Virus record (IMG/VR): IMGVR_UViG_3300027980_000037 | Location: 1-60,939 of that record | From: a virus | Strand: one strand, 5' to 3' | Length of the DNA stretch: 60,939 nt | Shown here: piece by piece, positions 16,183 through 58,648 of the stretch | Position numbering within the stretch: position 1 is the first letter of the stretch | How the letters are laid out: every line of letters begins with the position of its first letter | Notes under the pieces: generated by a model | Seen by the model: only the letters and a program-made list of their open reading frames with translations | What the model was told of the DNA's origin: nothing | Database searches by the model: none | Made by a program: the position numbers and the translations under genes

Positions 16183-16206
16183 CTATATCCACATTTGGGT
16201 TATAGT
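16179..16206 (+). promoter_or_regulatory. Rightward promoter with operator between convergent units
   Basis: TTGACT (16179-16184), 16-bp spacer containing TCCACATTTGG, TATAGT (16201-16206). Both hexamers are close to sigma70 consensus. It points into the 3' end of the oppositely oriented giant gene, with no coding gene downstream on the plus strand. Confidence 0.6.
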
Positions 16207-16211
16207 CCAGA

Positions 16212-16333
16212 CTATGTGGGCAGCGCCACGACTAAGAATGGCGTGTTACGTTAGAACAGGTGTGCGAAGGCTTCCACTCTCGACATGACCTTGTTCTTGC
16301 GACTCTGAAGGCGGTCTATGGCCGCCTTTTTTT
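16212..16333 (+). ncRNA. Predicted ~120-nt small RNA antisense to giant-gene 3' end
   Basis: Bounded by the promoter at 16179-16206 and an intrinsic terminator at 16308-16333. It contains a possible hairpin (CGCCA...TGGCG, about 16224-16243), and about 80 nt are antisense to the last codons of the 3680-aa gene. No ORF with a ribosome site is seen. Prediction only; the terminator may also simply serve the upstream operon. Confidence 0.4.
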
Positions 16334-25300: not shown

Positions 25301-27293
25301 CTGCTTCCGGCAAACGACTGTAGTCGATGTAGCGACGAAGACTGCTGGTTGCTTTAGCTCCGTATGCAGTGAGATATGTTTGGAACTCACCTTCAATAAA
25401 GTCAGCTTCTTTTTTGACCTCTTTCTGTGCAGCAGCCAGCCGCTTCCTGCCGGCTTCACTGGTTGGTTCTTTGCCTGTTTTCGGGTCGAAGCCAGAAGCT
25501 ACGGCAGACTCAAGCTGCTCGATCTTCGTTCTGCTCGATAGCACGTTTGACATGACCGACTGATGGAAGATTTCATTCTTCTGCTGGCTGTCGGGCCATT
25601 CGCCGCCAGCCGCCGTGTAATCGGATTTAAGGCTTTCGTCAGGCGATGGGAAGCTCGTCACATAGTCATAGCCGCCGGAAGTGTCCGGTGCTGCCCCTGT
25701 GGGCGCTGTATCGGGCAGAGTGACCGTATCACCGTCTGGCTGGCTATCAGGCTCAGGTTCGGTGTCTGGCGGCTGTACCGTGTTCCCTGTGTCCACCTGT
25801 GGCGCTGTATCAGGCTGCGGGGTCATGGGGATATCATCATCAGGCTCGGGCTGAGTTTCGCTCTCAGGGGCTGATTCTGGCGCTGCCTCGGCTTCCGGCT
25901 GGTTAGCCGGCTGGTTAGCCGGCTGGAATGTCTCAGGGTTGCTCATAGCCCGCGTGGCGAGCTGTGTCAGCTCTGTCAGGGCTTTAGCTGCGGTTGTATC
26001 CGTATCCTTTGGATCTGATGCCCTGTTCATCACATCAGCAACTGGCGCTATATCCAGCCCCTGATTAGCGAAAACGCGGGTAACTTCCTTAAACTTCCTT
26101 GCTAGGGCTGCTTCTGCGACCTTATTCGACTTATACGAGGCTTCACGCTCGGATACGTTGACATCGAATGTGCCGAAGCCGACACCCATAGCACCGCCGG
26201 CAATAGCGCCGCCAACCATTTCGTCGACAACACCATCCCATGTATCCAGATCGAGGTCGATCCCCTGCATGGTGACGTTCTGGATTGCCCGGGAAGAACC
26301 GGACTGACCGGCTTCCTGTACTGCTTCAGAGAGAAAACCAGCGCCAGCACCGCGAAGGCGGTTTGAAGCCCATACGCCAGAACCACCAAGCACCTTACCC
26401 AACACAGAGCCAAGCGGAGCGCCAAGCAGGGCCGACACACCAGTAACCTTGCTGGCAGCACTCTTTGAAAGCTCGTTAGCTAGTGTGTGTGAGGCGTACT
26501 GTACGCGCTCCATCGGTGACAGTTCGGGGGCTGACTGAAAGATTTCTTGGAAGCGCGGGTTAGCCCACAGATCTTCGGGGTCTGATTCCATGACCTGTCT
26601 GTAGACTTCAGCACCGGCGGCTGTGCCTTCGACAGCACCCTCACCAATACCGAAACCGACACCACCAAGCATACCGTCGACGATCCGCAGCTTCTTAGCA
26701 GCTGCAGCGCCTTTGGCTACCGTAGCTGCTGATGCGCCGGCTTTTGAACCAGCCTTAACAGCTGCATCAAGGGTCGCTCTGCCGAATGGGTTAGCAAATA
26801 ACTGCAGACCTTTGGTGACTGCACCACCAGCACCCATACCAAGCATAGTGCCAGGTATCGAACTTGCGCCGGCAAGCCCGACCTTATGCAAGCTCCAATC
26901 GTCGATCTCCCACGAACCGTCAGGGTTTACCTTAGTCCAATCTCGGCTGATTTCGTGCAGGGCATCTGCAGACATACCGCTGTACCAATGGTCAACGGCA
27001 CTCGAAGCGGCATCTTCCAACGCAGAGCCAGCGTCTTCCATACCACCCATACGCATGAGCCAGCCCATGCCTTCGCCAATCTGAGCGAAGCCACCCATGA
27101 CAGCCCTTCCGTAGTCGGAAGCACCAATATCAGGATCGTCTGATTGTGAGGATATTTGGGAACTGTAAGTGCTGCTTAAATAATCATCGAGCGGGGAGCC
27201 GCCTGATATTTGTTGTCCAGCAGATTCTGTTTTAGCCGGCGCACCTTCGCCGCCATACTGCTGTTTCAAATAATCGTCTAATGGCGATGCCAT
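16251..27293 (-). CDS. Giant polyvalent virion protein, 3680 aa
   Basis: Last gene of the late operon, after the internal virion genes, as for proteins carried in the capsid and ejected into the host. Visible parts: SPLDDYL repeated at 3-9 and 33-39; Ala/Gly-rich hydrophobic region (about 90-380); Pro/acidic linker (about 465-550); PKAK repeats (about 805-820); pyrophosphatase-like polyvalent domain (about 1262-1375); DdrB/ParB-like domain (YPEEMQPRDRSRD at 1441; to about 1720); RadC/JAB domain with HNHPGG at 2037 and downstream S and D; zincin-like HEIIGHY at 2334-2340; long C-terminal LPD38-like region (about 2780-3500); terminal coiled coil. Expected to protect incoming DNA and alter the host cell; those roles are inferred from polyvalent-protein families. 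Confidence 0.85.
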   Translation of the reverse strand: MASPLDDYLKQQYGGEGAPAKTESAGQQISGGSPLDDYLSSTYSSQISSQSDDPDIGASDYGRAVMGGFAQIGEGMGWLMRMGGMEDAGSALEDAASSAVDHWYSGMSADALHEISRDWTKVNPDGSWEIDDWSLHKVGLAGASSIPGTMLGMGAGGAVTKGLQLFANPFGRATLDAAVKAGSKAGASAATVAKGAAAAKKLRIVDGMLGGVGFGIGEGAVEGTAAGAEVYRQVMESDPEDLWANPRFQEIFQSAPELSPMERVQYASHTLANELSKSAASKVTGVSALLGAPLGSVLGKVLGGSGVWASNRLRGAGAGFLSEAVQEAGQSGSSRAIQNVTMQGIDLDLDTWDGVVDEMVGGAIAGGAMGVGFGTFDVNVSEREASYKSNKVAEAALARKFKEVTRVFANQGLDIAPVADVMNRASDPKDTDTTAAKALTELTQLATRAMSNPETFQPANQPANQPEAEAAPESAPESETQPEPDDDIPMTPQPDTAPQVDTGNTVQPPDTEPEPDSQPDGDTVTLPDTAPTGAAPDTSGGYDYVTSFPSPDESLKSDYTAAGGEWPDSQQKNEIFHQSVMSNVLSSRTKIEQLESAVASGFDPKTGKEPTSEAGRKRLAAAQKEVKKEADFIEGEFQTYLTAYGAKATSSLRRYIDYSRLPEAARSEQESLDKDLASIEAQGTDFTGFMGDVVNPKVKQGVVSLNKAGIKTSMSGDMYNAGLIYLDVESDVTGELPEGWVKTGRHIEQTKADVLGGDTKKAKMSPGTRIARKDTGPITKAEADALVAAFTPSEDNKTEAAPKPKAKPKAKPKAKTKADNSVPKLEPNDVKKLDKTHDAVKLSTGKINKPVEVGGRLFTAAGITHQGERGPKQIRYVELVPQEDYEGETIDVGQQIEQYDKGRQRGDWTGTRVQHGKKKYVVARNYEWNRDGGWGTSKEIFAPETKAPTEQTVDEFKVEVANAVVDAMRPYYSEEDTDGNSWLRRLKKHNDFKANKKNKKEAGTFSNDDIAFVIHSDQAEGVIIVTRYNKVLRKNAQIQVSAQWVLEQLAGNTDTDFQMFVTYKRGNMALNKTYDVEAGIPDIQPYLDQLPEYEQYSDRPHAEMFHGKLETVKVMNIDGTMVAIRRVIEHQDEIRSVHYTELTPIEDWNAETITDIEGFGETSNTKKGARRPWDYSGRVIDVDGKQYVAGDNFEYSNYDANDTGGIKREPGKIQNVEKGSVNAAAAASPFNPENDKPEPTTSQQNAGTEGNFEQPAIEWEAAGLTLRMQYPKGSERYGKTLKAHYGNIEGTKGHDRMKIDVIIGDALETSDKVWFVDQLDDGGMTYVQTKVLVGFNRKAAAMSAYKAMYPSGENISYQGKISELKDWIDSGQESQMTAPRGIFSGVNNFGSDSTSEEMKAGIGSNQQTLFGSRKVSTRWEIWDLRDLVASNLISGKKNKNYPEEMQPRDRSRDATQQWINETKSKFQPERVGFTTTAEDGAPVITKDGVVVSGNGRVMLFKSSFGKDENESTEALQKEYHDYIIKNESQFGFNFGEDKKDSVYGFSVLVRVIQEEMSDAELADLGKEGNVSAQAAFSPSEQAAKDVVSEKMIGMLNPDDKGNLLAASNMPFMVEFMNENIPVAERAAFMTEDGRPTKQLADRVQQAVFWTAYRNERILSLMAEEADPGIKNIIAALNKAAPNFARAQSAANGKLGDLDAVTPLTDAIEAIRSAKGAGLTVEEFLAQRDAFTEIDPTADRFARFLDANMRSGQRMGSALSHLAERINNEISKGSTEDIFGSEPASLDDLLSATNDYMKEQWGDAPKGKQNQLFSKRPVSRVSLAEGDIVSRIWYVDSLMHPVGPDGQFQQVNGNTFLYSSPDEISKVGGEVYAIDISNLNLSQFTVSPAKTKAAYPAKIRRDHILSKTEVYAILNKPETKPQPVPSAPPAAKKPTIIKPEKGTPATLYQQPVGNAVQSMIKYPHETVDTAQQAADIFHAVIGQKSHEVLLGLITDKNNKPLFVVRLSVGGISATTMYSEVFFPAVMSDPNGVNFWMAHNHPGGITTQSDSDRKLARSINLSLTQTGLNFKGSIVVARGSKYTFFHPGSGVDQSKREVERPQETGNEETIPLIERRFVGEVEEVPPAKINSAEDIEAWVQENLDGQEGILMLNQRAMITGFLPYDLDEAGLLRRGDMETGAPLIMRELGKAGANRIVLVSNRENYRTLNGVADNIKRLLNRLDMQFTDWINNGKTVRRTGGRGALPDTRAHKFLSAGTEQVEEGLTVEQVDMFLSPFKSQFGGVVDIEVVQSNSDLPFDVEPSDIIEGVYLEGTNKVYMVADNLRNADDVARVASHEIIGHYGLEKLPEFNDVLGAVKSMARSGNKRVADAWKEAELRNPNENNDVLAKETLAILTERGNNNIGILARARVAMRQALRRIGFNQEITEEEVDALIIRAARDLTKANMDYQQTIMSASQTATLENPDAFRDEISKAMEEIYEEYGPSTDAERINPVFSKGNVVEMSMPALSQTDRLFLEGAKNPAAMLELQKFIEDPMDTDALDSFIFETIKAARFIDADAQQGDIEIYPDRDYIENEREADIADTIDLISLAMEDIVLGRFVRNQTKYKSADEALIDLSRRMTTPAGRPFKPRFSKRYEDRHEPVGQHIDRFLSMLTPHNSFLGLIELKSFLKTPSGANREALLEQVRKDLIFQYTSKYQPKYKKHNPRNIDGLNKAMILIDDAFDTVASNLKIGTVKEFRDITKAFINKKYGNTRNMYSKRATGGDRMEALTGKYLAKPQEDYTLRDRMRIWFRNMTNWDWRAIRQNIIDNAESLRALEVDTFGQTLDAAYSPYKAVLATRNIRSVMTYVMIGGIPQLKDGSFQPKAGRKGIIEIFRPLTDHKDGNLLHLWELYAAAKRAKQLMNEKNKDGTEREKLFDPEDIEEILELKDKYLDENGESIFEKVHKDWMKMNSEALDLLEKSGVLDAELRKTFINNMYVPFHRAMESIEFDEYSKGEGRKPRGMRGGVSNVNSGIMRLKGSERKVGHVFENMVMNMTYMMDAAYRNHAMQRVALAYDGGALEKIDLETEAVQISLQQMASALRKAGLIVGNTPAPGQVDTFGMQVVQRMTPEQRDQWLKVFRKVAPAGDNIVTVLQNGQRVYYRVHDPLLLRTLQGVGTQRFDNIMGLFGGSKRLLTTMVTTDPAFMMANFVRDTLAAWVQSDVGMKPFVDSVKGMKSAWNEDEDMLTLMAAGAGGGGFYDTNSDDVRKLIAKKVPRGHVDSFMNSIVSPSGMWRFWRRVGNASEQANRVAVYKRVRGAGGSVAEAAYQARDVLNFTMVGDNPTVMALVATVPFFNARLQGLYRLSRGAMDNPKAFATKGFILAAMSLALLYRNWDNDDYERLPEWDKDLYWHIWIGRDMANDNKGEHFRIPKPFEVGAMFATVPERIWRKTAGRDDLNLMKERGLSMMFETFAFNPVPQLIKPIWEQKSNLDFFTNSPIVGFSEQGRIPEAQYNPWTSEFMREMAKAMPDSAPAWLRSPQRLEHALRGYFGATGMYILDAADYMTRGAFGYPDKTAKDIRDYPVVKRFWRNPNPRYTKYANQMYGMLEESNDIYRTINAYKKQGLGKEAKALYKDKVGVLAARNNLNKMLKEIRKVNDRIRQIEYNNVMNSDEKKAAIDRLQSRKNKVMSRVEAFAHLF
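16308..16333 (+). terminator. Rightward intrinsic terminator inside the giant gene's 3' end
   Basis: AAGGCGGTC-tat-GGCCGCCTT, a 9-bp stem with one wobble, followed by five T residues. It is embedded in the last codons of the convergent giant gene. It terminates the recT operon and/or the predicted small RNA. Confidence 0.75.
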
Positions 27294-47708: not shown

Positions 47709-49226
47709 TTAAACGCACTCTGGTTCAAGGTTCTCAATTGATTCGTAAATCGACTGATCTTCCTTTATAGGCACTGGCTGTGCGAAAGTGAATCCCAGCG
47801 CATCAGCAGCATCAGGGCTGGGAAGACCGCGTTTAGCCATTTCTTCCTTCCGCTCAAGCCGCATTATCATGTTGTTATCGTAGCCGTACTCAGGGCCGAT
47901 AAGATCCTCGAACAACTCGTTATCCTGCGGAATATCCGCAGATTTAAGCCATTCGCGCATACGCCACCACATTTCCATACGCGGGTTATAGAACGTCTTA
48001 GTGTCCAGTACCGCCTTCCGGTCGCCGGCATACACCGGTGTGACGTTAAAACCCAACTGCACCAGCTGCAGGAATACAGCGTGACCGTAGCCGTTAGCGT
48101 CAATGAAGATGCAGTCAGGATTCGCCTCGTTGATAAATTCAGCCAGGTATCCAGACAGCTTGTTCACATCAGCTTCACGCCAGCGCCTGATGTCGTTGAA
48201 TACCTTCGGGCCTTGCCTAATGAGCGCCACCGTCTGTGCATCACCATAGGAACCAACATCAATGCCCATCAACTTCGGTAAGTTAGCCGGTATGGTTTTG
48301 TCCTCGATCTCGCGTTCTTGTGCATCTTCAACACGGTCATTCGGGATAAGCTGCTTCGAGCCGGATTTAGGGAACTTGCCCAAGATACGGACGCGCACGA
48401 AGTCAGAGTCGATACCCCAATCTTCAATCCACTGGCGAAGCTGTTCGTTGTCAGCCATCTTGGCTTCACGGCTATCGACACGGAATGTGTGCCAGCGTTT
48501 GCGAAGAAGTGTCCAGCACTGCCGGAAGCGTCCGGTGTTACTGGTCGGGTTGCCAAAGCACAACCACATTGCCCCGGGCGTTGTCATTGCACCCTCTGCA
48601 GTCTCCCAAATGCTCGCGTCAATCTCTGAAGCCTCATCGAACAGCATGAGAACGTGGGCTTCGTGAGTACCGGCGAATGCTGAACTGTTGGCAGCACTCC
48701 ACGGTACAGCAGTAGCGAACCAAGTATCAGGGCGCTGTTTATGTTTGAGCTGGGTAGCTGTGTAATTAAACCAATGCCCGCAGATGCAGCAACCATGCCA
48801 TTTCGCAAGCTCACGCCATGTCTTAGTAGTAAGCTGGTTCTTGGTGTTGGCAGTAACCACGATCTGCGGGTTTGGTCTGGTGCTGATGAACCACAAAATA
48901 ATCCAGCTGGTCATGGCGGTTTTGCCGATACCGTGACCTGAAGCCACAGCCATTCGGATCGCTTTTTCTATGACCTTTTCGCCTTCCGGCGTTTCGTTCC
49001 AATCTTTCTGGATTAACTCGCCAAGCAGCGTCAGGAATTCACGCTGCCATTTGTCCGGGCCATCAGGATATTCTTCAAGGAAAGTGCCTTCCTCACCCCA
49101 CGGGAAAGCGAATTCAACGAACCCTAGAGGATCGTCGTAGTATTCTGCAATTGCTTCTGCAAGTTGGAGTTCTGCATCAGTCTCAGGAATATGATCGTCT
49201 GCAAAAACATCAATGGCTGGTTGCAT
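47709..49226 (-). CDS. terL: Terminase large subunit
   Basis: 505 aa. ATPase: Walker A SGHGIGKT (96-103) and Walker B VLMLFDE (192-198). Nuclease: GIDVG (D323), FIDANG (D376) and PDAADAL (D472/D475) give the acidic triad of the RNase H-like domain. It pumps and cuts DNA at the portal. The small subunit is about 9 kb away (57857), not adjacent as is usual. Confidence 0.93.
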   Translation of the reverse strand: MQPAIDVFADDHIPETDAELQLAEAIAEYYDDPLGFVEFAFPWGEEGTFLEEYPDGPDKWQREFLTLLGELIQKDWNETPEGEKVIEKAIRMAVASGHGIGKTAMTSWIILWFISTRPNPQIVVTANTKNQLTTKTWRELAKWHGCCICGHWFNYTATQLKHKQRPDTWFATAVPWSAANSSAFAGTHEAHVLMLFDEASEIDASIWETAEGAMTTPGAMWLCFGNPTSNTGRFRQCWTLLRKRWHTFRVDSREAKMADNEQLRQWIEDWGIDSDFVRVRILGKFPKSGSKQLIPNDRVEDAQEREIEDKTIPANLPKLMGIDVGSYGDAQTVALIRQGPKVFNDIRRWREADVNKLSGYLAEFINEANPDCIFIDANGYGHAVFLQLVQLGFNVTPVYAGDRKAVLDTKTFYNPRMEMWWRMREWLKSADIPQDNELFEDLIGPEYGYDNNMIMRLERKEEMAKRGLPSPDAADALGFTFAQPVPIKEDQSIYESIENLEPECV

Positions 49227-51818
49227 TTACACGCTCACACCGAAGCCTCGCAGCAACTTGAGAACGGCGGCATACATCATCGGGCCATCCATTGTTATTC
49301 CGTCCTTGCTGACAAAGGCGAATGAAATAGTAGGGGTTGATTGAGTGCCGCCAAACGAAGTGCTGCCAAGTTTCACAGTATCGTTTGGTACGCCGTTTAC
49401 GGCAGCATCGCCGGATTCGATGTTAAACCCGTTCACAAATGCGTCTGTTCGGCTGGTGCTTGCCGGATTCTGGCGGCGGCACATATAGAACTTCTTGTCC
49501 ATGACCTCGGTGGCGTAGTCGATCTCTGTGCTAACGAGGCGGGCCGCGTTGGTGTTCATACAGTATTCTGTTTCACCAAGACTCTTAGCCTCGAATGTTA
49601 CGCGCCAGCGAGCATTTGCAGCCGAACTGCACTCAAACATTTGCTCTGTAGCAAACTCGGCAATACCAATAGGCGTACCGTCATACACAAACACACCAAA
49701 CGCATAATTGCTGGCATCGACGCTTTCATCTGTCGGGTTGAAGCCGGTATCTACAAGTTGTCCAGCGCCATCACGACCACTCAGGTCATAGCCGTTGGCG
49801 TTGTGTCCGATATTAGCGTGAAGCGTACAGGCATCGCCGGTAATGATGCCGATTTCGTTGTAATCGAAACCGCTGCAACCAATCCAGAAGTCAGCCATGC
49901 CTTCGAGTGCGCCGAAGCTCGCCAGATCTTCTGCGAACTGTCGCAGAGCCGCTTTCTGTGCGTCGGTAGCGTCAGGGCAGTTCTCGGTGAAATCCAGACC
50001 GCTTGTGTTGGCATTAACATCGCGTGACAATTTTGAAGGTGTGGTTACTACATGACCGTAATCTTTTTGCTCACCGGCTATCTCGTTAACCAGTGCCATG
50101 AAATCTTCGATGTAATACTGGGTATCGTTTGGCGGGCTACCCTGACTGCCGCCGGTTACGATATCGTGCATGATTAACGCCATTGTCGAGCCGGTATAGC
50201 GAACAGTATGTTTCAACTGACGGTCTACCAAATGAGTATAGGTATCAATCGTGCCGCCATCTGATTCAACAATAAGGCCGGCAATTGTTCTCAGGTGGTT
50301 GTAGCCGCCGTTTTCGTAATCACGATTAGATATCGCCTGACAAATTTCTGGCGTTGAAGTCCTGCTGGTTTTAATACCAAGTTCGAGCAGAATACTAAAT
50401 AACACCCGCATCCATTCTTCACCGCCGTTGCGATAACCATTGCCCGGGAAAACAGCGTGATACGCACCACGCGACCAGCTTGTTCCAGCCGGTATTGCGC
50501 CAATGTAGCTATTTGGGTCGAGCAGGAAATCTTGGTTTCTGTTGATATCTGCAAGCAGATGGGTTCTGCAAGCGACGTAATCATCGTAGGTAGTGAGAAC
50601 ACCAGTACCCCACGAAGTAACGAGATCACCAACGACAGAAGCATCAGCCAAACCGCTGCTGCCACAATCGTAATCAATCGTGTGTGCATCAATCACGGTG
50701 TAAGCAACATCGGTGGCGTTGTAGCCAGCTGGCGTAGCGGCAGAAACCGTGATTGTTCCATCACCGGAAAGACCGTGAGGCGCACCAGTTTTCATAACCA
50801 TTCTGGCGGTTGTTCCAGAAGGGTTTGTTAGAGAGTCGCGCCAACCCTGCGGGAAATCGACACCTGCGGTTAAATTCGACCAATAGTGGGTTGAGTGAAC
50901 CGATAGCTCATGCCCCTGATCGTACAACGTTTGAAGCTGCTGCCATGTAAAAGCAGTACCAAGCTCGATGATTATGGCGTTGGCAATGATGCCAAAACAG
51001 GCTTTGTGGTCATGTTCGTTGAGTTTTTCTACGACAGTCTTGTTGTAGTCCGGGTCTGATGCGCTGACTGCACTGTTCTGCTGATCTAACGGCCCGTCTA
51101 TACCATCATCAAAATAGAAAATTGTTGAGGGGTTTTTTTTGCGGTTCAGTGTGAACCCGCCAAAGATACACTTGTAGTCTCCGTCTTCGCCCCAGCTAGA
51201 GAGAGGCCAGCCATTAGGTGTGCCGTTGCTATCACCTAATACAAGTCGAATTTGATCACAACCATCACTGGTAAGATCAATGACGCTTCCCTGAGTCCTG
51301 AATATCTCTCTGGATGGGTGATATCCAATAATTTTGTTATTTACATTCCATGGCATACCCCATAGGCAGTTCCATCCTGGCAACAAACCGTCATTCATGT
51401 AAAAACGAATTTCTTGAACGCCGCCACTTGAGCTATTGCGGAACTGAAGTGCTAAATAATCGTCGCTACTGAAGGTGGCGTATGACAACCATACCCAAGC
51501 ACCAAAAACATCGTAATTATCGTAAGTTATAATACCAGATGGGTTTGTCCATACAACACCCCAGCCGGAAGTGTCGGAAGCAAGTTGAAGGCCTTTGCCA
51601 AACAGGTTCGGGTTATCGACTTGCCGACTGTACGGCGAACCAAATAGCGCAAGGTTGGGGTCTGTAAGATCACCGTCGCAGATGATTGTGCCGTATTGAG
51701 ACACGATGTTGTTTCGATTGTCTCGCCCGTGCTGGGCGTGAAGTCTGGCAGGAAAAGACGCACTGCGCCGTGCGTCAAAGTGACCTATTGACCGTCGATT
51801 GATCGGCTTGTCGCCCAT
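49227..51818 (-). CDS. Tailspike with polysaccharide deacetylase domain, 863 aa
   Basis: N-terminal about 35 basic residues may be the virion anchor. Residues about 40-220 are a beta sandwich, possibly carbohydrate-binding. A NodB-type deacetylase follows: FYFDDG (about 233-238) supplies the metal-binding Asp pair and HELSVHSTH (about 302-310) the H-S/T-x-x-H ligands. A small beta domain (APHGLSGDGTITV; about 335-410) is inserted inside the catalytic domain. The C-terminal about 250 residues are another beta region. It probably removes acetyl groups from capsule or O-antigen during adsorption. Confidence 0.75.
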   Translation of the reverse strand: MGDKPINRRSIGHFDARRSASFPARLHAQHGRDNRNNIVSQYGTIICDGDLTDPNLALFGSPYSRQVDNPNLFGKGLQLASDTSGWGVVWTNPSGIITYDNYDVFGAWVWLSYATFSSDDYLALQFRNSSSGGVQEIRFYMNDGLLPGWNCLWGMPWNVNNKIIGYHPSREIFRTQGSVIDLTSDGCDQIRLVLGDSNGTPNGWPLSSWGEDGDYKCIFGGFTLNRKKNPSTIFYFDDGIDGPLDQQNSAVSASDPDYNKTVVEKLNEHDHKACFGIIANAIIIELGTAFTWQQLQTLYDQGHELSVHSTHYWSNLTAGVDFPQGWRDSLTNPSGTTARMVMKTGAPHGLSGDGTITVSAATPAGYNATDVAYTVIDAHTIDYDCGSSGLADASVVGDLVTSWGTGVLTTYDDYVACRTHLLADINRNQDFLLDPNSYIGAIPAGTSWSRGAYHAVFPGNGYRNGGEEWMRVLFSILLELGIKTSRTSTPEICQAISNRDYENGGYNHLRTIAGLIVESDGGTIDTYTHLVDRQLKHTVRYTGSTMALIMHDIVTGGSQGSPPNDTQYYIEDFMALVNEIAGEQKDYGHVVTTPSKLSRDVNANTSGLDFTENCPDATDAQKAALRQFAEDLASFGALEGMADFWIGCSGFDYNEIGIITGDACTLHANIGHNANGYDLSGRDGAGQLVDTGFNPTDESVDASNYAFGVFVYDGTPIGIAEFATEQMFECSSAANARWRVTFEAKSLGETEYCMNTNAARLVSTEIDYATEVMDKKFYMCRRQNPASTSRTDAFVNGFNIESGDAAVNGVPNDTVKLGSTSFGGTQSTPTISFAFVSKDGITMDGPMMYAAVLKLLRGFGVSV

Positions 51819-51822
51819 TGGC

Positions 51823-52119
51823 TTAACCTATGAGCGCGACAGTTGCACTACCAGTGCCGCCGGTGCTTTTGCAATCCAGTTCCAAACGCTGCGGGATCTC
51901 GATGCAGTACACGCCATCAGCGGTGAAGTTCAGACCGTCGATATCTTCAAAGTCTGTGGTAGCGCCTTCCGGTCGACCGCCAAACTGAATATCGTGACCG
52001 TTAATACCGGTGATGTAGATAGCCAGACAGTTCGATGTGCGCGCCGTTACCAGCGGAATTTCATCATCGTCATAGGCTTTGCTGCTAGATACCGACCAAG
52101 ATTTAATCTGTTTAGCCAT
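51823..52119 (-). CDS. Small beta-rich virion protein, 98 aa
   Basis: All-beta, Gly/Thr/Asp-rich, just upstream of the tailspike gene in transcription order. It may be an adaptor that joins the spike to the tail, or a small decoration protein. No known motif. Confidence 0.55.
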   Translation of the reverse strand: MAKQIKSWSVSSSKAYDDDEIPLVTARTSNCLAIYITGINGHDIQFGGRPEGATTDFEDIDGLNFTADGVYCIEIPQRLELDCKSTGGTGSATVALIG

Positions 52120-52177
52120 CGTTTTCCCCTGTGGGAATTGGTTGTCGGACTGATTACACCCCGAAAAGGCTTTTTAT

Positions 52178-52375
52178 TCAAGAGCCACCGGCTGTAAAGC
52201 CTTGTTCATAGCCTTCTTCGTGACCCTCGTTACGTGCGGCAAAGGTGCATTGCTGACAGGGTTTGACCTCTATACCACCACCAAGAGCGTTACCACCATC
52301 TAGCGTCGAACCGCAGCCGGAACAGACTATGTTGATAAGAACGCCCGCCGGCTTTATTTTTTCGCTGTCACTCAC
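52178..52375 (-). CDS. Small zinc-ribbon protein, 65 aa
   Basis: CSGC (about 18-21) and CQQC (about 40-43) form a zinc ribbon; the tail is acidic and Gly-rich. It overlaps the 75-aa membrane gene by 8 bases. Confidence 0.6.
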   Translation of the reverse strand: MSDSEKIKPAGVLINIVCSGCGSTLDGGNALGGGIEVKPCQQCTFAARNEGHEEGYEQGFTAGGS

Positions 52376-52595
52376 GGCCTTTAATCAGAACCTTGCGCTT
52401 GATGCTGTAAATATCCAAGCTGGTTCTTTCCTCGATTTCATCAATCGCCCAAATAATCAGGATAAGCCACCACACGGTTATGATCGCGATACCGACAGAG
52501 ATATCATCAACCTTTATGTCTGCGCCTTTCCACCAAGTCACAGCGGCAGAAATAAGCATGATTACCAAACCAATACCAAAGTACCAATAGTACAT
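52368..52595 (-). CDS. Two-segment small membrane protein, 75 aa
   Basis: ATG 52595 has AAGGAG directly upstream. Two hydrophobic segments (about 2-18 and 30-49) and a charged tail. A second holin, antiholin or inner-membrane effector are possible; it is 20 kb from the lysis genes. Confidence 0.6.
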   Translation of the reverse strand: MYYWYFGIGLVIMLISAAVTWWKGADIKVDDISVGIAIITVWWLILIIWAIDEIEERTSLDIYSIKRKVLIKGRE

Positions 52596-52605
52596 ATCAC
52601 TCTCC

Positions 52606-52701
52606 TTACGAAAGCGTTGATGTAACACCAAGAATAAGCACAACTACAAACGCCATTGCGACAATCAATGTCAAGCACAACTGTCTGCTTGTAGCTCGCA
52701 T
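52606..52701 (-). CDS. Micro-ORF: 31-aa single-pass membrane peptide
   Basis: TGATG overlap with the upstream stop. Residues 8-28 are hydrophobic (CLTLIVAMAFVVVLILGV) after a basic start (MRATSRQ). The next gene's ribosome site follows its stop. Coupling and topology support expression; function unknown. Confidence 0.5.
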   Translation of the reverse strand: MRATSRQLCLTLIVAMAFVVVLILGVTSTLS

Positions 52702-52892
52702 CAGTCTTCACCCATAAAATCTTTGTAGTCTTCTTCAGACAATTCGATGATATTCAGAATCGTGACAGCAGCTCCGTCATTCTCACGACCGGCAGCTTCA
52801 GCGATCCGCTTCATTGACGGATGCTTTGGGCCATTCAAAACAAACTGACCGGAACCGGTTGTGCCTAAATAGCTGATGAAAAAATATCTCAT
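52701..52892 (-). CDS. Small hypothetical protein, 63 aa
   Basis: Joined by ATGA/TGATG overlaps on both sides. A strand N-terminus (MRYFFISYLG) and an acidic helical tail. No metal ligands or membrane segment. Confidence 0.6.
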   Translation of the reverse strand: MRYFFISYLGTTGSGQFVLNGPKHPSMKRIAEAAGRENDGAAVTILNIIELSEEDYKDFMGED

Positions 52893-53056
52893 TTATGTGT
52901 CCTCATATCGTCGAGCGCACCTTGTTTTCGTTCTTCACTCAACAGCATTTCTTTGATGCGTTGTAAGTTTATTGGGTGTATTTGGTTTGGTGGTATTTCC
53001 TGACTGAAGCCTTTTAGTATTTTTTTGATGTGTTCTTCTGTCAGCTCGTCAGTCAT
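52889..53056 (-). CDS. Small helical protein, 55 aa
   Basis: Starts inside the end of the 100-aa gene and ends in an ATGA overlap with the next start. Charged and helical (LTEEHIKKILKGF; LQRIKEMLLSEERK). It fills what would otherwise be a 156-base gap. Function unknown. Confidence 0.6.
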   Translation of the reverse strand: MTDELTEEHIKKILKGFSQEIPPNQIHPINLQRIKEMLLSEERKQGALDDMRTHK

Positions 53057-53351
53057 TGGTGAATTCCATCATCTTCATATTGAAGTCGTATTCCATCATC
53101 CACCCTGAATACTTTTGGCTCAAGTAATTTCTGCAAGTGCCATCGTATTCCTCGCGCTCGGCAGACAAGCGGCTGGTGTTCCAGAAAATAACAGCCCTGC
53201 CAGGTATCGGCGGCGGCAATTCAGACATGGGTTTCCACGGCATAGAGCGTTGGTGTTCTGTTATCGCCCTCGATCTCTCGAAGGTCTTTTCGTTGTTATC
53301 GCCGTACACTTCTTTGTCCACTGGTCGCGGGAAATCGCCCTTACCTGACAT
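53049..53351 (-). CDS. Hypothetical protein, 100 aa
   Basis: Contains WKPMSELPPPIPGRAVIFWN, a motif of short phage proteins of the DUF551-like kind (W-x-P-M-x-E-x-P). Soluble. Overlaps its neighbours at both ends. Role unknown. Confidence 0.6.
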   Translation of the reverse strand: MSGKGDFPRPVDKEVYGDNNEKTFERSRAITEHQRSMPWKPMSELPPPIPGRAVIFWNTSRLSAEREEYDGTCRNYLSQKYSGWMMEYDFNMKMMEFTND

Positions 53352-53766
53352 TTGTGGGCCTCGGTTTTAGGTTTGATGTGTTTTTATAAGAAAGCACTGC
53401 GCCGCATCCGTCACAACAAAGAACACTGCCTCTCTTGACCGGAGTGCTGTCAGCATGAAGCGCCCACTTTGATTTAACTTCAAAGACGGTTGCAAATTTT
53501 CTACGAAGGTATTTAAACGCGACCTTGCCGCAGTCTTTGTGAATGATATCTATGTATGAGCCATCGGCGTAGACGTTCCAGTTGTAAGGTCTGGTGATTC
53601 TTGGGAATGGCTGGTACTCGCGGGTAAACGGGTTCATCGCGAAGATAGTACCCCATTCCTCAACCTCTACTTGGTGAGGCGAAGCTATTCTTGAGCTGTC
53701 ATAAGCAACTGTATTTTTAAACAGCCGAACAGCTAATTTTTCGTCTTCTAGTTCTTGGCTAGTCAT
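53341..53766 (-). CDS. Hypothetical protein with C-terminal zinc site, 141 aa
   Basis: An N-terminal helix is followed by a strand-rich domain. HKDC in the middle and CCDGC near the C-terminus may bind zinc. It lies near the start of the late operon. Confidence 0.6.
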   Translation of the reverse strand: MTSQELEDEKLAVRLFKNTVAYDSSRIASPHQVEVEEWGTIFAMNPFTREYQPFPRITRPYNWNVYADGSYIDIIHKDCGKVAFKYLRRKFATVFEVKSKWALHADSTPVKRGSVLCCDGCGAVLSYKNTSNLKPRPTNVR

Positions 53767-53837
53767 TTCTTGTTGTTATTTTACCGGCGAAGCCGGTCGA
53801 AATTTTTTGAAGCTTCGCATTTCATATTTTATCCCGG

Positions 53838-54065
53838 CTAACTGTAACGGCGGCGATACGCTTTCTCGTCGACCTTCCAGCCATTTTTCGCCATGTGACG
53901 GTCTTTGACCGCTTGCCATTCCGCAAAACTATTACCGTAAGAAACGACAGCCTCATTACACGCAACAAAATCCGCAACCCTCGGCGGCGATGTAGCCAAG
54001 CGGGCCGTGATCGCAACCGACGCTACCGACGCAACTACAAGCTTTAAGAAATTCCTACGATTCAT
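53838..54065 (-). CDS. Small exported protein with Tat-type signal, 75 aa
   Basis: MNRRNFLKLVVASVASVAITA: twin-arginine RRNFLK followed by a moderately hydrophobic stretch and an A-x-A-like site, a textbook Tat signal. The mature part is only about 45-50 residues (FAEWQAVKDRHMAKNGW...). It is the first gene after the late promoter at 54176-54204. A phage product routed to the Tat pathway is unusual; function unknown. Confidence 0.65.
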   Translation of the reverse strand: MNRRNFLKLVVASVASVAITARLATSPPRVADFVACNEAVVSYGNSFAEWQAVKDRHMAKNGWKVDEKAYRRRYS

Positions 54066-54175
54066 TTTTTTATCCGAAATTTTGTATACGGCTGTTCGGA
54101 CTCTTACCGCAGCCGCCTAACGCAACCCAGCCCATTGCTGCTGCTCTCTGGAACTGGCGAGTTCCACTACAACCG

Positions 54176-54204
54176 AATATATCCGCATTTATAGCCAGTG
54201 TCCA
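54176..54204 (-). promoter_or_regulatory. Late-operon promoter overlapping an operator copy
   Basis: Minus strand TGGACA (54204-54199), 17-bp spacer, TATATT (54181-54176). The -35 is part of CCAAATGTGGACA, the same motif found at the early promoters. It points into the operon that begins at 54065 and runs to 16251. Confidence 0.6.
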
Positions 54205-54449
54205 CATTTGGGGGGAGAAAACCGAAAAAATGGGCGTGGGTGTTATGGGGAACCCTTATTTAGTAAGAGAGAAGGTTCATTCGATTCCGATTGGCTGGCG
54301 GGTTTTTGCGGGCTGCTTCGGTGGGGCTGTTGTTCACACTGCATGGCGCTCTGCTGCTGCTGGCTGCTCTGCTGCTGCTGATGTGATGCCACAGTATGCA
54401 CATTGTCGATCGGTGTCGCTGTGGCTGCTCTCGTTGGCTGTGGTTGGTG

Positions 54450-54481
54450 GATGCCAGGTCGAATGAGTGATGCCAGGTCGA
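54450..54481. repeat. Tandem GATGCCAGGTCGA repeats
   Basis: Two perfect 13-bp copies (54450-54462, 54469-54481) 19 bp apart, between the terminator of the last early cassette and the late promoter. The position corresponds to that of the GTAGCTCAACGGT repeats in the neighbouring cassettes. Confidence 0.7.
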
Positions 54482-54496
54482 TGCTGTGACTTCAGG

Positions 54497-54524
54497 GCAA
54501 AAGAAAGCCCGCGCTAGGCGGGCT
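54497..54524 (-). terminator. Intrinsic terminator
   Basis: Minus strand AGCCCGC-ctagc-GCGGGCT followed by TTCTTTT. It ends the unit containing 54558-55561. Confidence 0.85.
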
Positions 54525-54557
54525 GTGAGTTGGTAGCTGATGAATGCTGTTAGCGGC

Positions 54558-54821
54558 TCATGCCTCACCGCCTTCGAGCTGCTCAGTGATGCTGTCGATG
54601 CTGTCGCTCAGGTGTTGATACAGGTCGGCCCGCTTGTAGCTGTCCGGGCATGATAGCTTGCGCCTCACGTGGGCGGTCACACTGCCCCGCGAATGAGTAA
54701 GACCCTTCATTTCGAGGCTGATGGCGTGTTTCCACTGTAAAAGCTGAAAAAGAGGTATCTCAACCACCACACCGTTAAAGTCATAGATGCCCACATTGCT
54801 TGCTAATAGTTGCTGTGACAT
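54558..54821 (-). CDS. Hypothetical protein, 87 aa
   Basis: Last gene of the third early cassette, ending about 30 bases before the terminator. Mostly helical with a central cysteine and basic patches (VTAHVRRKLSCPDSYKRADL). Two bases separate its start from the preceding stop. No function recognised. Confidence 0.65.
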   Translation of the reverse strand: MSQQLLASNVGIYDFNGVVVEIPLFQLLQWKHAISLEMKGLTHSRGSVTAHVRRKLSCPDSYKRADLYQHLSDSIDSITEQLEGGEA

Positions 54822-54823
54822 GA

Positions 54824-55144
54824 CTAGTACCCCGCAGCTTCAGCACGATAGTCGCGCTGGCGATGGCTGATATCTTGAAAATCAGGATAGCCGTACTCAT
54901 TAAGCGGCATTGGATTGGTGGCAACGACCTGATGCAGCGTCGAAGACAGGCGACCATCGCAATCACTGCCATCACGCTCGATAAATCGCGTCAGCTCCTG
55001 CCCATCGTCAGACAGCTCCCAAGTAATCCGCGAGGCACTGTAGCCCTCGTCGGTACGCTCGAAAGTAGAATGCTCAAGGCTTTGCCCCGGCTCGATTGTT
55101 AGCGTTACCACGCCATTGTTGTAGGTTTTAAATCTCATGCTCAT
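54824..55144 (-). CDS. Hypothetical protein, 106 aa
   Basis: Starts with AGGGGT upstream (a second ATG six bases later is possible). The N-terminal half is strand-rich (VVTLTIEPGQSLEHSTFER), the rest polar. It follows the 27-aa membrane ORF and may be coupled to it. Confidence 0.65.
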   Translation of the reverse strand: MSMRFKTYNNGVVTLTIEPGQSLEHSTFERTDEGYSASRITWELSDDGQELTRFIERDGSDCDGRLSSTLHQVVATNPMPLNEYGYPDFQDISHRQRDYRAEAAGY

Positions 55145-55148
55145 ACCC

Positions 55149-55232
55149 CTATGGTAATAACAGAATGATTAGAAGCACTGCCAGCACGAAGCTGGCAGTA
55201 CCCCAATGGATTACAGGCGGGCGCTTGCTCAT
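55149..55232 (-). CDS. Micro-ORF: 27-aa single-pass membrane peptide
   Basis: ATGA overlap with the DUF2958-like stop. MSKRPPVIHWG is followed by a strongly hydrophobic stretch (FVLAVLLIILLLP). An inverted repeat (CTGCCAGC/GCTGGCAG) lies inside it. It is probably translated by coupling; function unknown. Confidence 0.5.
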   Translation of the reverse strand: MSKRPPVIHWGTASFVLAVLLIILLLP

Positions 55233-55561
55233 GCGCTTTCCTTGATGTGCCAAGTAATGCCCTTGCTAGACATTGCCTCGCCCAACGTCAGGTCACACTC
55301 GGTATCAGTAATAACGCCGGAGAATTGGTCAAGCTCAGAGGCTGGCAGATATCCCAGCTCAGGAAAGCCTAATCCAAGATCGCAAAGCCCGAACAGCATC
55401 GTAGCGCCATTGATAAGCTCGGCGTGTACGATGTGCCATTCCGCTGATGCTACTTCAAAGCGCACAATGACCGGACGGTCATAGTTAGCCACCTCGGGAT
55501 TGTCTGCAGCGCCAGCACAAAATAGCTGAGTTGAGAGTGAATCGGATATGTATGATTTCAT
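55229..55561 (-). CDS. DUF2958-like protein
   Basis: 110 aa, ATG 55561 preceded by GGAGACTGACACA. The central MLFGLCDLGLGFPELGYLPASELDQF matches the DUF2958 pattern (FGL...ELGY-x-ELE) known from plasmids and phages, often near RadC and antirestriction-type genes. Its cassette has its own promoter and GUGGU hairpin. Role unknown. Confidence 0.65.
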   Translation of the reverse strand: MKSYISDSLSTQLFCAGAADNPEVANYDRPVIVRFEVASAEWHIVHAELINGATMLFGLCDLGLGFPELGYLPASELDQFSGVITDTECDLTLGEAMSSKGITWHIKESA

Positions 55562-55579
55562 TGTGTCAGTCTCCAAGTA

Positions 55580-55633
55580 GCCCACACCACACGGGCCTTA
55601 TACACACTTTAATTTATGTGCAGCTACTGTCAA
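55580..55633 (-). promoter_or_regulatory. Cassette 3 promoter and GUGGU hairpin
   Basis: TTGACA (55633-55628), 16-bp spacer with a diverged operator (TGCACATAAAT), TAAAGT (55611-55606). Then GCCCGU-GUGGU-GUGGGC (55596-55580) as minus-strand RNA, with two G-U pairs that would be A-C mismatches on the other strand. GGAGACTGA follows at once. The -10 is weak. Confidence 0.55.
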
Positions 55634-55701
55634 GTGGTTTATTTTCGGAGATTCCGGGCAGCCTGGGCGATGGTGTGACATCACATATATCTTACTTCGG
55701 G

Positions 55702-55746
55702 GCTGTAGCTCAACGGTTCGCTTCCTTTTTGCTGTGGCTCAACGGT
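55702..55746. repeat. GTAGCTCAACGGT-type repeats, pair 1
   Basis: GCTGTAGCTCAACGGT (55702-55717) and GCTGTGGCTCAACGGT (55731-55746), 29 bp apart, directly downstream of the radC terminator and upstream of the cassette 3 promoter. Confidence 0.75.
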
Positions 55747-55751
55747 CAGGC

Positions 55752-55778
55752 AAAAAAAAGCCCCTGACTAGCAGGGGC
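55752..55778 (-). terminator. Intrinsic terminator of the radC cassette
   Basis: Minus strand GCCCCTG-ctagt-CAGGGGC followed by eight T residues; 18 bases after the radC-like stop. Confidence 0.9.
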
Positions 55779-55795
55779 GAGAGACTGCGACAAGT

Positions 55796-56257
55796 TCAGA
55801 ACTCGCCACGCATTGCCAGCGACACTGTGCTGTCGGGCGTGACAATGAAATGATCGAGAACTCGCACATCTATCAGTTCCATAGCATCACGGATACGGCG
55901 GGTAATGCTTTTATCTGATGCTGATGGCTCAGGCACACCGGACGGATGATTGTGTGCCAGCACGATAGCGGCAGCGTTCAGGTCGATAGCACTGCGTACC
56001 AGCTCACGCGGGTATACCGTGGTCGCATCAATAGTGCCTTTGAATTCTTCGCGGAACTCAAGAACACGGTGGCGATTGTCGAGATACAGCACACCAAACA
56101 CTTCCTGCTTACGGTGGGCGAGATTCGCCTTTAAGAAATCACGGCTGGCTGCTGGTGATTCGATTGCAACGCCCTTCTCGATGCCGCAAAGCTTTAAGTA
56201 CGCTGCTGCGACTTCTTCGATATTGGCTGCTTGTCCTGCTTTGTTGTATAGCTTCAT
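55796..56257 (-). CDS. radC: RadC-like JAB/MPN protein
   Basis: 153 aa. JAMM motif HNHPSGVPEPSASD with H102, H104, S112 and D115, plus the LEFREEF segment that may supply the Glu. It lacks the usual N-terminal HhH region, as in the short RadC proteins of phages and plasmids. A second RadC-type domain is present in the giant virion protein. Its own promoter, hairpin and terminator flank it. Biochemical role of RadC is still unclear; counter-defence is a hypothesis. Confidence 0.8.
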   Translation of the reverse strand: MKLYNKAGQAANIEEVAAAYLKLCGIEKGVAIESPAASRDFLKANLAHRKQEVFGVLYLDNRHRVLEFREEFKGTIDATTVYPRELVRSAIDLNAAAIVLAHNHPSGVPEPSASDKSITRRIRDAMELIDVRVLDHFIVTPDSTVSLAMRGEF

Positions 56258-56274
56258 TGTCAGTCTCCAAAATG

Positions 56275-56328
56275 CCCGCTACCACAGCGGGGTTATAAAC
56301 ATAGTATCAATTGTGGATAGTGTTGCAA
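56275..56328 (-). promoter_or_regulatory. Cassette 2 promoter and GUGGU hairpin
   Basis: TTGCAA (56328-56323), 16-bp spacer with operator variant TCCACAATTGA, TACTAT (56306-56301). Then CCCGCU-GUGGU-AGCGGG (56291-56275 region) and GGAGACTGACA before the radC start. Confidence 0.65.
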
Positions 56329-56397
56329 GTTCTTTTTTTCAGGTAGTGGTAGCCAGGACGATTCAGTGACGCGAGCCTTCCTTCTCACATTGTGGCA

Positions 56398-56454
56398 GTA
56401 GCTCAACGGTGGGTCAGTCGCTCAACGGTCTACCTCTTGGCTGTAGCTCAACCG
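56398..56454. repeat. GTAGCTCAACGGT-type repeats, triplet
   Basis: GTAGCTCAACGGT (56398-56410), GTCGCTCAACGGT (56417-56429) and GTAGCTCAACCG (about 56443-56454). Spacing is about 20 and 25 bases. They lie between the cassette 1 terminator and the cassette 2 promoter. Confidence 0.75.
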
Positions 56455-56460
56455 CCAGAC

Positions 56461-56499
56461 AAAAGAATGCCCCGCTACCGTTGGGGGCGATAGCGGGGC
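56461..56499 (-). terminator. Intrinsic terminator of cassette 1
   Basis: Minus strand GCCCCGCTA...TAGCGGGGC, a 9-bp stem with a 13-base loop, then ATTCTTTT; 31 bases after the 265-aa gene. Confidence 0.75.
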
Positions 56500-56529
56500 G
56501 TGGGGTTGCCGCAGGACGCGGCAGGGAGA

Positions 56530-57327
56530 CTAACTGTTTGCAGCTTTCGGCGTGATATCTTCGAGCCTGTGCAGTTCTTCAATCAGGCTTTCTTTCTGCT
56601 CTGGTGTGCATTCAAGGATATGCCGCGCCAGTTCATCAGTGCTGATATCGCCGCTGTCGAGTATCCGGCGCAAGGCGAACTCACTGTCACATTCGATAGC
56701 GACACAGGCTTCAGTCAGATTGTTATGAGTATCAACGGCCTGTTGACTGCCGCCAGCAAACAACACCAGCCGCACAACATACTTCGCATCCGGCAATACC
56801 TTCCCACCAGCGTCTGTGATATCACGCTTGTCCATATCGCTCAGTGATTCAGCGGTGCATTCTTCGATGTAGTATTCACCTGAAGCCAGCATGAATACCG
56901 ATTCCGGCGGCTTGAACTCGGGATAGTGGTTTGTGTCGGGGTCGATGCCGTACTTCTCGTACAGCTTCGGCAGGGCTTCGGGCGGGTATCCACCAACCTG
57001 CGTCCATTCGTAAGTACGGGTATCCAGCACGAAGAAACCTGCATCCCCATGACTGCGTTTTTCCTGATATTCAGTCATTAACAGTTCTGATACCAGTGGT
57101 GTTTTACCGCCAAACACACCGAGGCTCATATTGTCGGCATAGCCGCAGTGCTGGTGACAAACACCTACCAGCCGCGCATAAGCATAGGCAAAGTCATTGC
57201 CCCGGCTCTCCATCAGCTTGCGGTGAATGTCCAGAATCATCGGCACAGCGTAACCGCCCCAATGCAGATATATTTCCTGACTGACGTTTTCACCATCAGT
57301 TACTACGATTATTGCTCTATCACCCAT
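56530..57327 (-). CDS. Hypothetical protein with YLHWGG motif, 265 aa
   Basis: Begins with MGDRAIIVVTD and QEIYLHWGG, a start shared by an uncharacterised phage/plasmid family. The remainder is acidic with alternating helices and strands; no Walker or metal motif is evident. ATG 57327 has TGGAGAA upstream. Second gene of cassette 1, after the zinc-ribbon gene. Confidence 0.7.
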   Translation of the reverse strand: MGDRAIIVVTDGENVSQEIYLHWGGYAVPMILDIHRKLMESRGNDFAYAYARLVGVCHQHCGYADNMSLGVFGGKTPLVSELLMTEYQEKRSHGDAGFFVLDTRTYEWTQVGGYPPEALPKLYEKYGIDPDTNHYPEFKPPESVFMLASGEYYIEECTAESLSDMDKRDITDAGGKVLPDAKYVVRLVLFAGGSQQAVDTHNNLTEACVAIECDSEFALRRILDSGDISTDELARHILECTPEQKESLIEELHRLEDITPKAANS

Positions 57328-57353
57328 GAGTATTCTCCAGTTAAGGGTTGTGG

Positions 57354-57611
57354 TTAAAATTCTTCCATCATTGAAGCAGCACCATCTAGGTCACTGCCAA
57401 GAACGTCATACAATGAACCAGCCTTCATTGCTGTATCAGGGTTATGAGGCTCGTTGGTGCATTTGCTGTTAGGGTCACTATTGAACTCGTTGCCGAAAAC
57501 ACCGCAGCCATTCTTTCTGAATAGCTTGTTTGCTTGCTCAATAGGAAGGTCTACATCATGCAGGGAGTCGATATCCCACGGCTCGCCACAGTGTCTGCAA
57601 TAAATATCCAT
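57354..57611 (-). CDS. Zinc-ribbon phage protein, 85 aa
   Basis: MDIYCRHCGEPWDIDSLHD starts a family common in phages; CRHC plus later cysteines (KNGCGVF, SKCTNE) give a zinc site. ATG 57611 with GGAGACTGATA upstream; a longer frame from 57737 runs across the promoter. First gene of cassette 1. Function unknown. Confidence 0.75.
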   Translation of the reverse strand: MDIYCRHCGEPWDIDSLHDVDLPIEQANKLFRKNGCGVFGNEFNSDPNSKCTNEPHNPDTAMKAGSLYDVLGSDLDGAASMMEEF

Positions 57612-57629
57612 TATCAGTCTCCATTTATG

Positions 57630-57682
57630 CCCGCCACCACGGCGGGATAGCTTCAGATTACCAAATGTGGACACCATTGCAA
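57630..57682 (-). promoter_or_regulatory. Cassette 1 promoter and GUGGU hairpin
   Basis: TTGCAA (57682-57677), 16-bp spacer with operator TCCACATTTGG, TAATCT (57660-57655). Then CCCGCC-GUGGU-GGCGGG (57646-57630), 6 perfect pairs, and GGAGACTGATA before ATG 57611. Confidence 0.65.
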
Positions 57683-57740
57683 GCGTTATTTTTGAGCAGG
57701 TTTCAGCCGGCAACCCAGAGCCAGCAATGACTATCACTGG

Positions 57741-57775
57741 CGTAGGTCAACAGTAGATCAGTCGTGGGTCAACAG
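57741..57775. repeat. Diverged GTAGCTCAACGGT-type repeats
   Basis: CGTAGGTCAACAG (57741-57753) and GTGGGTCAACAG (57764-57775), 22 bp apart, upstream of the cassette 1 promoter. The core GTCAACAG differs from CTCAACGG, so membership is less sure. Confidence 0.5.
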
Positions 57776-57836
57776 CCCCGGGGTCGGCAAGGATACCTGG
57801 TATATCAGTAGTGGCAGATGTTGACTAAGTGATTGA

Positions 57837-57854
57837 TTCGCAAGGTCTTGCGAA
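57837..57854. repeat. Perfect inverted repeat after terS
   Basis: TTCGCAAG-gt-CTTGCGAA, 8-bp arms, two bases beyond the terS stop. It lacks a T-tract, so an operator or packaging/replication protein site fits better than a terminator. An operator core (CCACATTTG) lies next to it at 57862-57870 inside the last terS codons. Confidence 0.6.
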
Positions 57855-57856
57855 AA

Positions 57857-58648
57857 TCAGTCCACATTTGAATCGTGGTCAACCGTCACGGGCCGGCGAC
57901 CACCCATTGTTTTGCGTCGTTGAACCGCCCTTTCCATAGCGTCGGCGGTGTTCACTATCACGTTCACATCACTGGTGTCGTTCAACAGCCCGATGGATTT
58001 AGCCAATGAATCCAACGCTTTCTGCGGGTCAACTGTCTTCAGCTTGATAACGGTGGTGCGTATCGTGTCGCCGGAGTCTGTCACAATCTCTTTCACGGTT
58101 AGATCAACAGACCGTAAGCGGCGCTGTACCTCTACTGGCAGCTTGGTTACGTCTGTAATCATTAGCTGCCCGTTATCGTCGGACTCGAAATAGTCCACCA
58201 CATTAGCCTGAGCGTGGTTGTACCAGTCGCGCATGATGGCTTCGGCGGCTATCTTCGCGGAATCTGCTCGCCGGCTAACTTTTTTGTGAATCGAGTCTAG
58301 GAATTGGCTTATCTGTGGGTGACGCAGGACACGCCACGCCTCTGTATAGCACGTAGCGCGTGAGGCTTTGGGATACACAGTGGCATAGGCTTCAGCGGCA
58401 TTGTGACCGTTTGACAGGTAGTGTTGAGCTACTTCGGTGTATTTAGCCAGAGTATCTGGTCTTAGCTGTCTTGTTGTACTGGCTTGAATGGTGTTAGGTG
58501 GTAGGGCTTTGTTGTTTACAGGCGGGGGCAGGGCTTCGCCGGCTTCACTAGCGTCACGCTTTGCTATACGAACATTGGTTTCATCCTCGAATTTTGCAAT
58601 AAGGTCTTCAAGGCTTGATTTAGAAGTGTTTCGGCGCTGTTGGCTCAT
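57857..58648 (-). CDS. terS: Terminase small subunit candidate
   Basis: 263 aa. The middle has a helix-turn-helix-type region, NGHNAAEAYATVYPKASRATCYTEAWRVLRHPQISQFLDSI (about 78-118), typical of TerS: A-x-AY...P-x-A...A-x-x-LL-x-x-P-x-V. The C-terminal part is strand/helix (VQRRLRSVDLTVKEIV) as in small terminases. It would bind the packaging site and load TerL. Unusually far from terL; length is on the long side. Confidence 0.7.
   Translation of the reverse strand: MSQQRRNTSKSSLEDLIAKFEDETNVRIAKRDASEAGEALPPPVNNKALPPNTIQASTTRQLRPDTLAKYTEVAQHYLSNGHNAAEAYATVYPKASRATCYTEAWRVLRHPQISQFLDSIHKKVSRRADSAKIAAEAIMRDWYNHAQANVVDYFESDDNGQLMITDVTKLPVEVQRRLRSVDLTVKEIVTDSGDTIRTTVIKLKTVDPQKALDSLAKSIGLLNDTSDVNVIVNTADAMERAVQRRKTMGGRRPVTVDHDSNVD

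Follow-up and report, generated by a model that had tools for sequence, protein, structure and literature searches.

Three adjoining phage gene cassettes with homologous leaders: probable moron-like accessory transcription units

Three Cassettes of One Plan

The virus record IMGVR_UViG_3300027980_000037 of IMG/VR, from a metagenome, comprises 60,939 bases, and this whole stretch, referred to below as the window, was analyzed here. On its minus strand lie three adjoining units, at 57.8–56.5, 56.46–55.76, and 55.75–54.5 kb, in each of which the same elements follow in the same order: repeats of the form GTTGASCNAC, a predicted sigma70-like promoter, a GTGGT-loop hairpin, the sequence GGAGACTGA with an ATG, one or more genes, and an intrinsic terminator. 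Judging from the sequence, these cassettes are probably insulated accessory transcription units of the moron type, built by duplicating one ancestral leader. A preliminary description of this DNA had presented them as three adjacent minus-strand units of one plan, which is borne out by the terminators, the hairpins, GGAGACTGA, the repeats and the homology of the leaders; its view that the units are self-contained and moron-like and share a leader is likewise supported by their anatomy and by that homology.

The leaders were compared by local alignment, scored against 500 dinucleotide-preserving shuffles, and also by global alignment. Locally, the leaders of units 1 and 2 reached a score of 47 and those of units 2 and 3 a score of 48, with a shuffle maximum of 28 in both comparisons (0/500 shuffles each). 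In the global alignment, the conserved part of the leaders extends from the repeats across the promoter as far as GGAGACTGA. Since the local scores lie far above those of the shuffles, the three leaders most likely descend from one ancestral sequence, with unrelated genes behind them.

The repeats themselves are strongly concentrated in these leaders. GTTGASCNAC occurs 10 times in the window against 1.13 copies expected (none of 100 shuffles reached 10), and seven of the ten copies of the genome fall in the three cassette leaders. By motif scan, two are found in unit 1 (57742–57773), three in unit 2 (56398–56452) and two in unit 3 (55705–55743), all on the minus strand. The core of the repeat has been retained while the surrounding DNA diverges. 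At the other end, each unit is closed by an intrinsic terminator, as had been claimed (minus strand, 56499–56469 in unit 1, 55778–55760 in unit 2, and 54524–54506 in unit 3), and these three are the top three minus-strand matches of the terminator scan.

Between promoter and gene, all units have the GTGGT-loop hairpin on the minus strand. It reads CCCGCC-GTGGT-GGCGGG in unit 1 (57630–57646; −11.5 kcal/mol, pair probability ∼1) and CCCGCT-GTGGT-AGCGGG in unit 2 (56275–56291; ∼−9.5 kcal/mol, pair probability near 1), while that of unit 3 is weak and includes three G-U pairs (55579–55597; ∼−6 kcal/mol). Among the 89 strong hairpins of the genome with a loop of 5 nucleotides (nt), GTGGT is the commonest loop (3). 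If transcription is assumed to start 7 nt after the −10 box, the base of the hairpin lies at about +3 of the predicted mRNA in all three units. Units 1 and 2 differ in the innermost pair, which has changed from C-G to T-A on both sides with the loop unchanged. This two-sided change speaks for selection on pairing, although it represents one event only.

The stem ends just 4–7 nt upstream of GGAGACTGA, leaving the start signal outside it. GGAGACTGA had been put forward as a cassette element, and it does sit directly upstream of the first ATG in every cassette (57614–57622, 56260–56268, and 55566–55574, all on the minus strand). It also precedes recT (11414, plus strand) and a gene for a replication-like protein of 352 amino acids (aa; 60698, minus strand), so that five gene starts of the phage carry it in total. 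This distribution marks GGAGACTGA as a signal for gene starts throughout the phage, not one specific to the cassettes.

Predicted Promoters and a Possible Phage-Wide Operator

The promoter of unit 1 was predicted as TTGCAA-N16-TAATCT (57655–57682, −10 box at 57660–57655), that of unit 2 as TTGCAA-N16-TACTAT (56301–56328, −10 box at 56306–56301) and that of unit 3 as TTGACA-N16-TAAAGT (55606–55633, −10 box at 55611–55606), all on the minus strand. The promoter scan reaches only that of unit 3; in units 1 and 2 the promoters were positioned by visual inspection and from homology.

The preliminary description had an operator, or a diverged form of it, in the spacer of every promoter. This applies to unit 1, with an intact CCAMATKTGG palindrome (57661–57670), and to unit 2, where alignment shows it decayed to CCACAATTGA, but not to unit 3, where the operator scan recognized none. 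The cassettes thus hold a single copy out of five in the genome (at 11348, 16189, 54202, 57661, and 60775), against 0.27 expected. Four of the five lie between predicted −35 and −10 boxes and the copy at 54202 overlaps a predicted −35 box; this placement, by predicted promoters throughout, suggests an operator used across the phage. Control of all units by one regulator, also proposed earlier, gains no support from the operator, of which unit 1 alone has an intact copy; the GTTGASCNAC repeats are shared by all three units.

Two further promoter loci were seen elsewhere in the window. At 16179–16333 (plus strand), a good predicted promoter, TTGACT-N16-TATAGT, has the operator palindrome in its spacer and is followed ∼100 nt on by a strong intrinsic terminator (16307–16329 plus a T run). 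The element is a candidate gene for a small RNA under operator control, which would be antisense to the 3′ end of an open reading frame of 3680 aa (16251–27293, minus strand; a related, longer reading frame occurs in the relative G002 described below), or it may just mark where the recT operon ends. At 11363–11390, a self-complementary TTGCAA could serve as −35 box for both of two divergent promoters, one toward recT (plus strand) and one toward a gene for a 127-aa protein (minus strand).

Genes Carried by the Cassettes

All cassette genes are on the minus strand. Unit 1 encodes an 85-aa Cys-rich protein (57354–57611), for which Pfam and other family searches gave no family, and a 265-aa protein of unassigned function (56530–57327) with a partial homolog on the Salipiger plasmid pPABY8. 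An AlphaFold prediction of the latter, made without an alignment, was unusable (mean pLDDT 35). Unit 2 encodes a RadC-like protein of 153 aa (55796–56257) with a JAB domain and its metal-binding motif (Pfam PF04002, E = 1.5e-42; TIGR00608 above cut-off; PDB 2qlc, 5e-18); the HNHPSG...SASD motif is intact and the N-terminal HhH part is missing.

Unit 3 holds four reading frames: a DUF2958 protein of 110 aa (55229–55561; Pfam, E = 2.7e-9), a hydrophobic, membrane-like frame of 27 aa overlapping the DUF2958 stop (55149–55232), a 104-aa protein without a family in the searches (54824–55138) and an 87-aa protein with a weak PHROGs match to phrog_19182, a family of unknown function (54558–54821). 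The cargo is much as first described, with the 265-aa protein, RadC, and DUF2958 plus three others, but the zinc ribbon assigned to the 85-aa Cys-rich protein was unconfirmed by Pfam. RadC and DUF2958 both occur on mobile elements, and on pPABY8 a DUF2958 gene stands ∼3 kb from the partial homolog of the 265-aa protein, a pairing consistent with accessory genes of mobile elements.

Searches for the Leader and for Relatives

The preliminary description had proposed looking for the combined pattern in related phages. The leader was absent from all other viral contigs, species genomes, phage records, and plasmids searched. Scanning for GTGGT...TGGAGACTGA, which combines the hairpin with GGAGACTGA, gave 15 matches in viral contigs, none with the leader architecture when inspected in context, and 34 matches in species genomes, with stems of at most 2 pairs. 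The operator pattern matched eight times in viral contigs, each time as a single palindrome at a locus without GGAGACTGA. DNA searches with the leader of unit 3 against phage records and with that of unit 2 against plasmid records found nothing, and in the radC neighborhoods of viral contigs and plasmids the RadC homologs had no such leader.

Relatives were sought with four proteins, namely the small and large terminases, the 352-aa protein, and an 863-aa protein. The search retrieved a near-identical fragment (G001), G002, and more distant relatives. G001 is the same phage at 99.985% and ends before the cassettes. G002, with a large terminase 65% identical, has kept the gene order up to a Tat-signal gene that borders the cassettes; directly upstream of this gene it carries other, tightly packed genes with no promoter gap, and its contig ends ∼1.1 kb past the Tat gene. 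Because other genes stand beside the Tat gene in G002, the interval is, on this comparison, variable at its near edge.

Comparison With Known Systems

Phage morons have their own promoter and terminator and are inserted between modules. Like them, each unit has a predicted promoter and a terminator and is found at a module boundary, here between the small terminase and the late genes; unlike them, the three units have one homologous leader. The terminators were found in three of three units, and the promoters are predicted, with the scan threshold reached by unit 3 only. Another comparator is the radC RNA motif (Rfam RF01754; PMC2864571). It is likewise a predicted structured 5′ leader, situated before radC and further genes of mobile elements; searches with the Rfam covariance models, including this one, found nothing even when E values as high as 1 were allowed.

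That no described phage system has such a layout, as had been stated, is too strong, since other phages are already known to repeat elements of a similar kind at their gene starts. In the cluster K mycobacteriophages, start-associated sequences (SAS) precede many unrelated genes, and about half of them have an upstream element with a promoter and an inverted repeat (ESAS) (PMC3203893, PMC11373665). The SAS includes the ribosome-binding site, and the ESAS promoter is sigma70-like, with an inverted repeat of unknown function (PMC3203893; PMC11373665). The present phage resembles this in placing one start-associated repeat, GGAGACTGA, before several unrelated genes, at five starts. The cluster K sequence, the 13-bp GGGATAGGAGCCC (allowing up to 2 changes), was not found at gene starts here, the conserved element being GGAGACTGA; copies are far fewer, and each unit has upstream repeats and a terminator. 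The cluster K inverted repeat sits with the promoter, whereas the hairpin here lies downstream, in the predicted mRNA. Because the sequence differs and the hairpin is downstream of the promoter, the three-unit layout is, as far as sequence comparison goes, analogous to SAS/ESAS and not a member of that system.

Proposed Mechanism and Alternative Explanations

If the cassettes are insulated accessory units with a duplicated leader, each predicted promoter would start an mRNA whose 5′ end lies ∼3 nt before the hairpin. 5′-terminal stem-loops are able to stabilize bacterial mRNA, and the hairpin would act chiefly as such a stabilizer or as a spacer, with GGAGACTGA providing strong translation initiation. 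The repeats upstream of the −35 box would bind a putative regulator from the phage or the host, unit 1 would be further repressed through the five-site operator regulon of the phage, and the terminators, as read from the sequence, would hold each unit independent of its neighbors. Duplication of the leader, with recombination between its copies, could allow cargo genes to be added or swapped. A shared leader with own terminators is a plausible way of expressing accessory genes independently.

Several results weigh against this interpretation. The direct likeness of the leaders of units 1 and 3 is weak (local score 25, reached by 4/500 shuffles), and the consensus promoter scan yielded no more promoters than shuffles do (8 found, 10.2 expected). 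The GUGGU-loop hairpin claimed earlier for each unit is present in all three, but the weak stem of unit 3 is displaced in the predicted ensemble by an alternative fold of −12.5 kcal/mol, leaving pair probabilities of up to 0.06; as it is predicted to be out-competed, an RNA function common to all three units may fail to hold. No relative with the same interval, showing a change of cargo under constant leaders, was found in the collections searched, and the likeness of the leaders could be due to common descent alone, without selection.

One alternative is that the leaders are mere duplicated remnants, a promoter/terminator segment having been copied twice during gene acquisition, with no coordinated control and no function of the hairpin. 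The operator intact in unit 1 alone, the weak hairpin of unit 3, the general use of GGAGACTGA as a start signal in the phage and the failure to find the leader outside this genome in the viral contig and species genome scans all favor it. We nevertheless regard it as rather doubtful, given that the loop is identical in three of three units, that the stem of units 1 and 2 was kept by a two-sided change and that the repeat core persists next to diverging DNA. The hairpin might instead be a translational operator, that is, the target of an RNA-binding protein or an antisense RNA, as the invariant GUGGU loop and the short distance from the stem to GGAGACTGA would allow; this is unlikely, as the stem does not include the start signal itself, no protein that would bind it was recognized, and the conservation of the loop may stem from descent.

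The preliminary description had also suggested a possible platform for host-takeover or counter-defense genes. As a dedicated counter-defense platform, it would have one phage regulator, acting through the repeats and/or the operator, that turns on genes against host defense from all three units early in infection. The mobile-element associations of RadC and DUF2958 and the gene pair on pPABY8 fit such a platform, which was not shown: PADLOC, NCBIfam, Pfam, and PHROGs gave no match of the cargo to a counter-defense family, the operator is not common to the units and a candidate regulator was not found. We hold this explanation to be improbable, and a counter-defense role is itself a guess from the type of cargo. 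Similarly speculative is a phage-specific regulon in which a regulator recognizing GTTGASCNAC, and possibly the GUGGU hairpin, would switch on accessory and possibly counter-defense genes, with the leader as a recombination joint for cargo. Finally, the leaders resemble the Frpo/ssi single-stranded-DNA promoters of anti-defense islands in the leading regions of conjugative plasmids (PMC11541004) in having repeated promoters before small accessory genes, with cargo like that of mobile elements and a hairpin near the promoter. Unlike those, neither strand of the cassette promoters forms a fold enclosing the promoter in a duplex mimic, and DNA folding of either strand was no stabler than shuffles (z +0.7 to +1.9), which makes this explanation barely credible.

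Should expression data agree with insulated units under a duplicated leader, the cassettes would represent a portable gene-start module placed before unrelated accessory genes, as in the unrelated mycobacteriophages. Such modules flag accessory genes by their leader and not by protein sequence, and would aid in finding host-takeover genes missed by family models.

Genome and Setting of the Cassettes

Both ends of the window have an exact 126-base repeat in common (∼152 bases with one mismatch allowed), and the genome is therefore probably complete and circularly permuted. Its predicted products include RecT and a RecE-like exonuclease, an SSB, a resolvase of the RusA-like type, both terminase subunits (small and large), and a major head protein. 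Among the reading frames scanned, family searches recognized neither an integrase nor a repressor, and lysogeny is thus not supported by the family evidence.

The cassettes sit between the small terminase gene (57857–58648), which closes the replication operon, and the Tat-signal gene (53838–54065), which precedes the large terminase region and shares an operon with the large terminase. The two terminase genes are ∼8.6 kb apart (47712–58648, minus strand), separated by the cassettes, the Tat-signal and other small genes, and the gene for the 863-aa protein, which has a weak polysaccharide-deacetylase match. Within the recT/SSB operon, a reading frame at 15461–15928 (plus strand) matches a PHROG family annotated as cysteine dioxygenase (E = 5.8e-45). 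Two 19-bp direct repeats resembling GATGCCAGGTCGAATGAGT follow the third cassette terminator at 54450–54487 and precede the Tat/late operon promoter; they resemble the cassette repeats in placement and differ from them in sequence.

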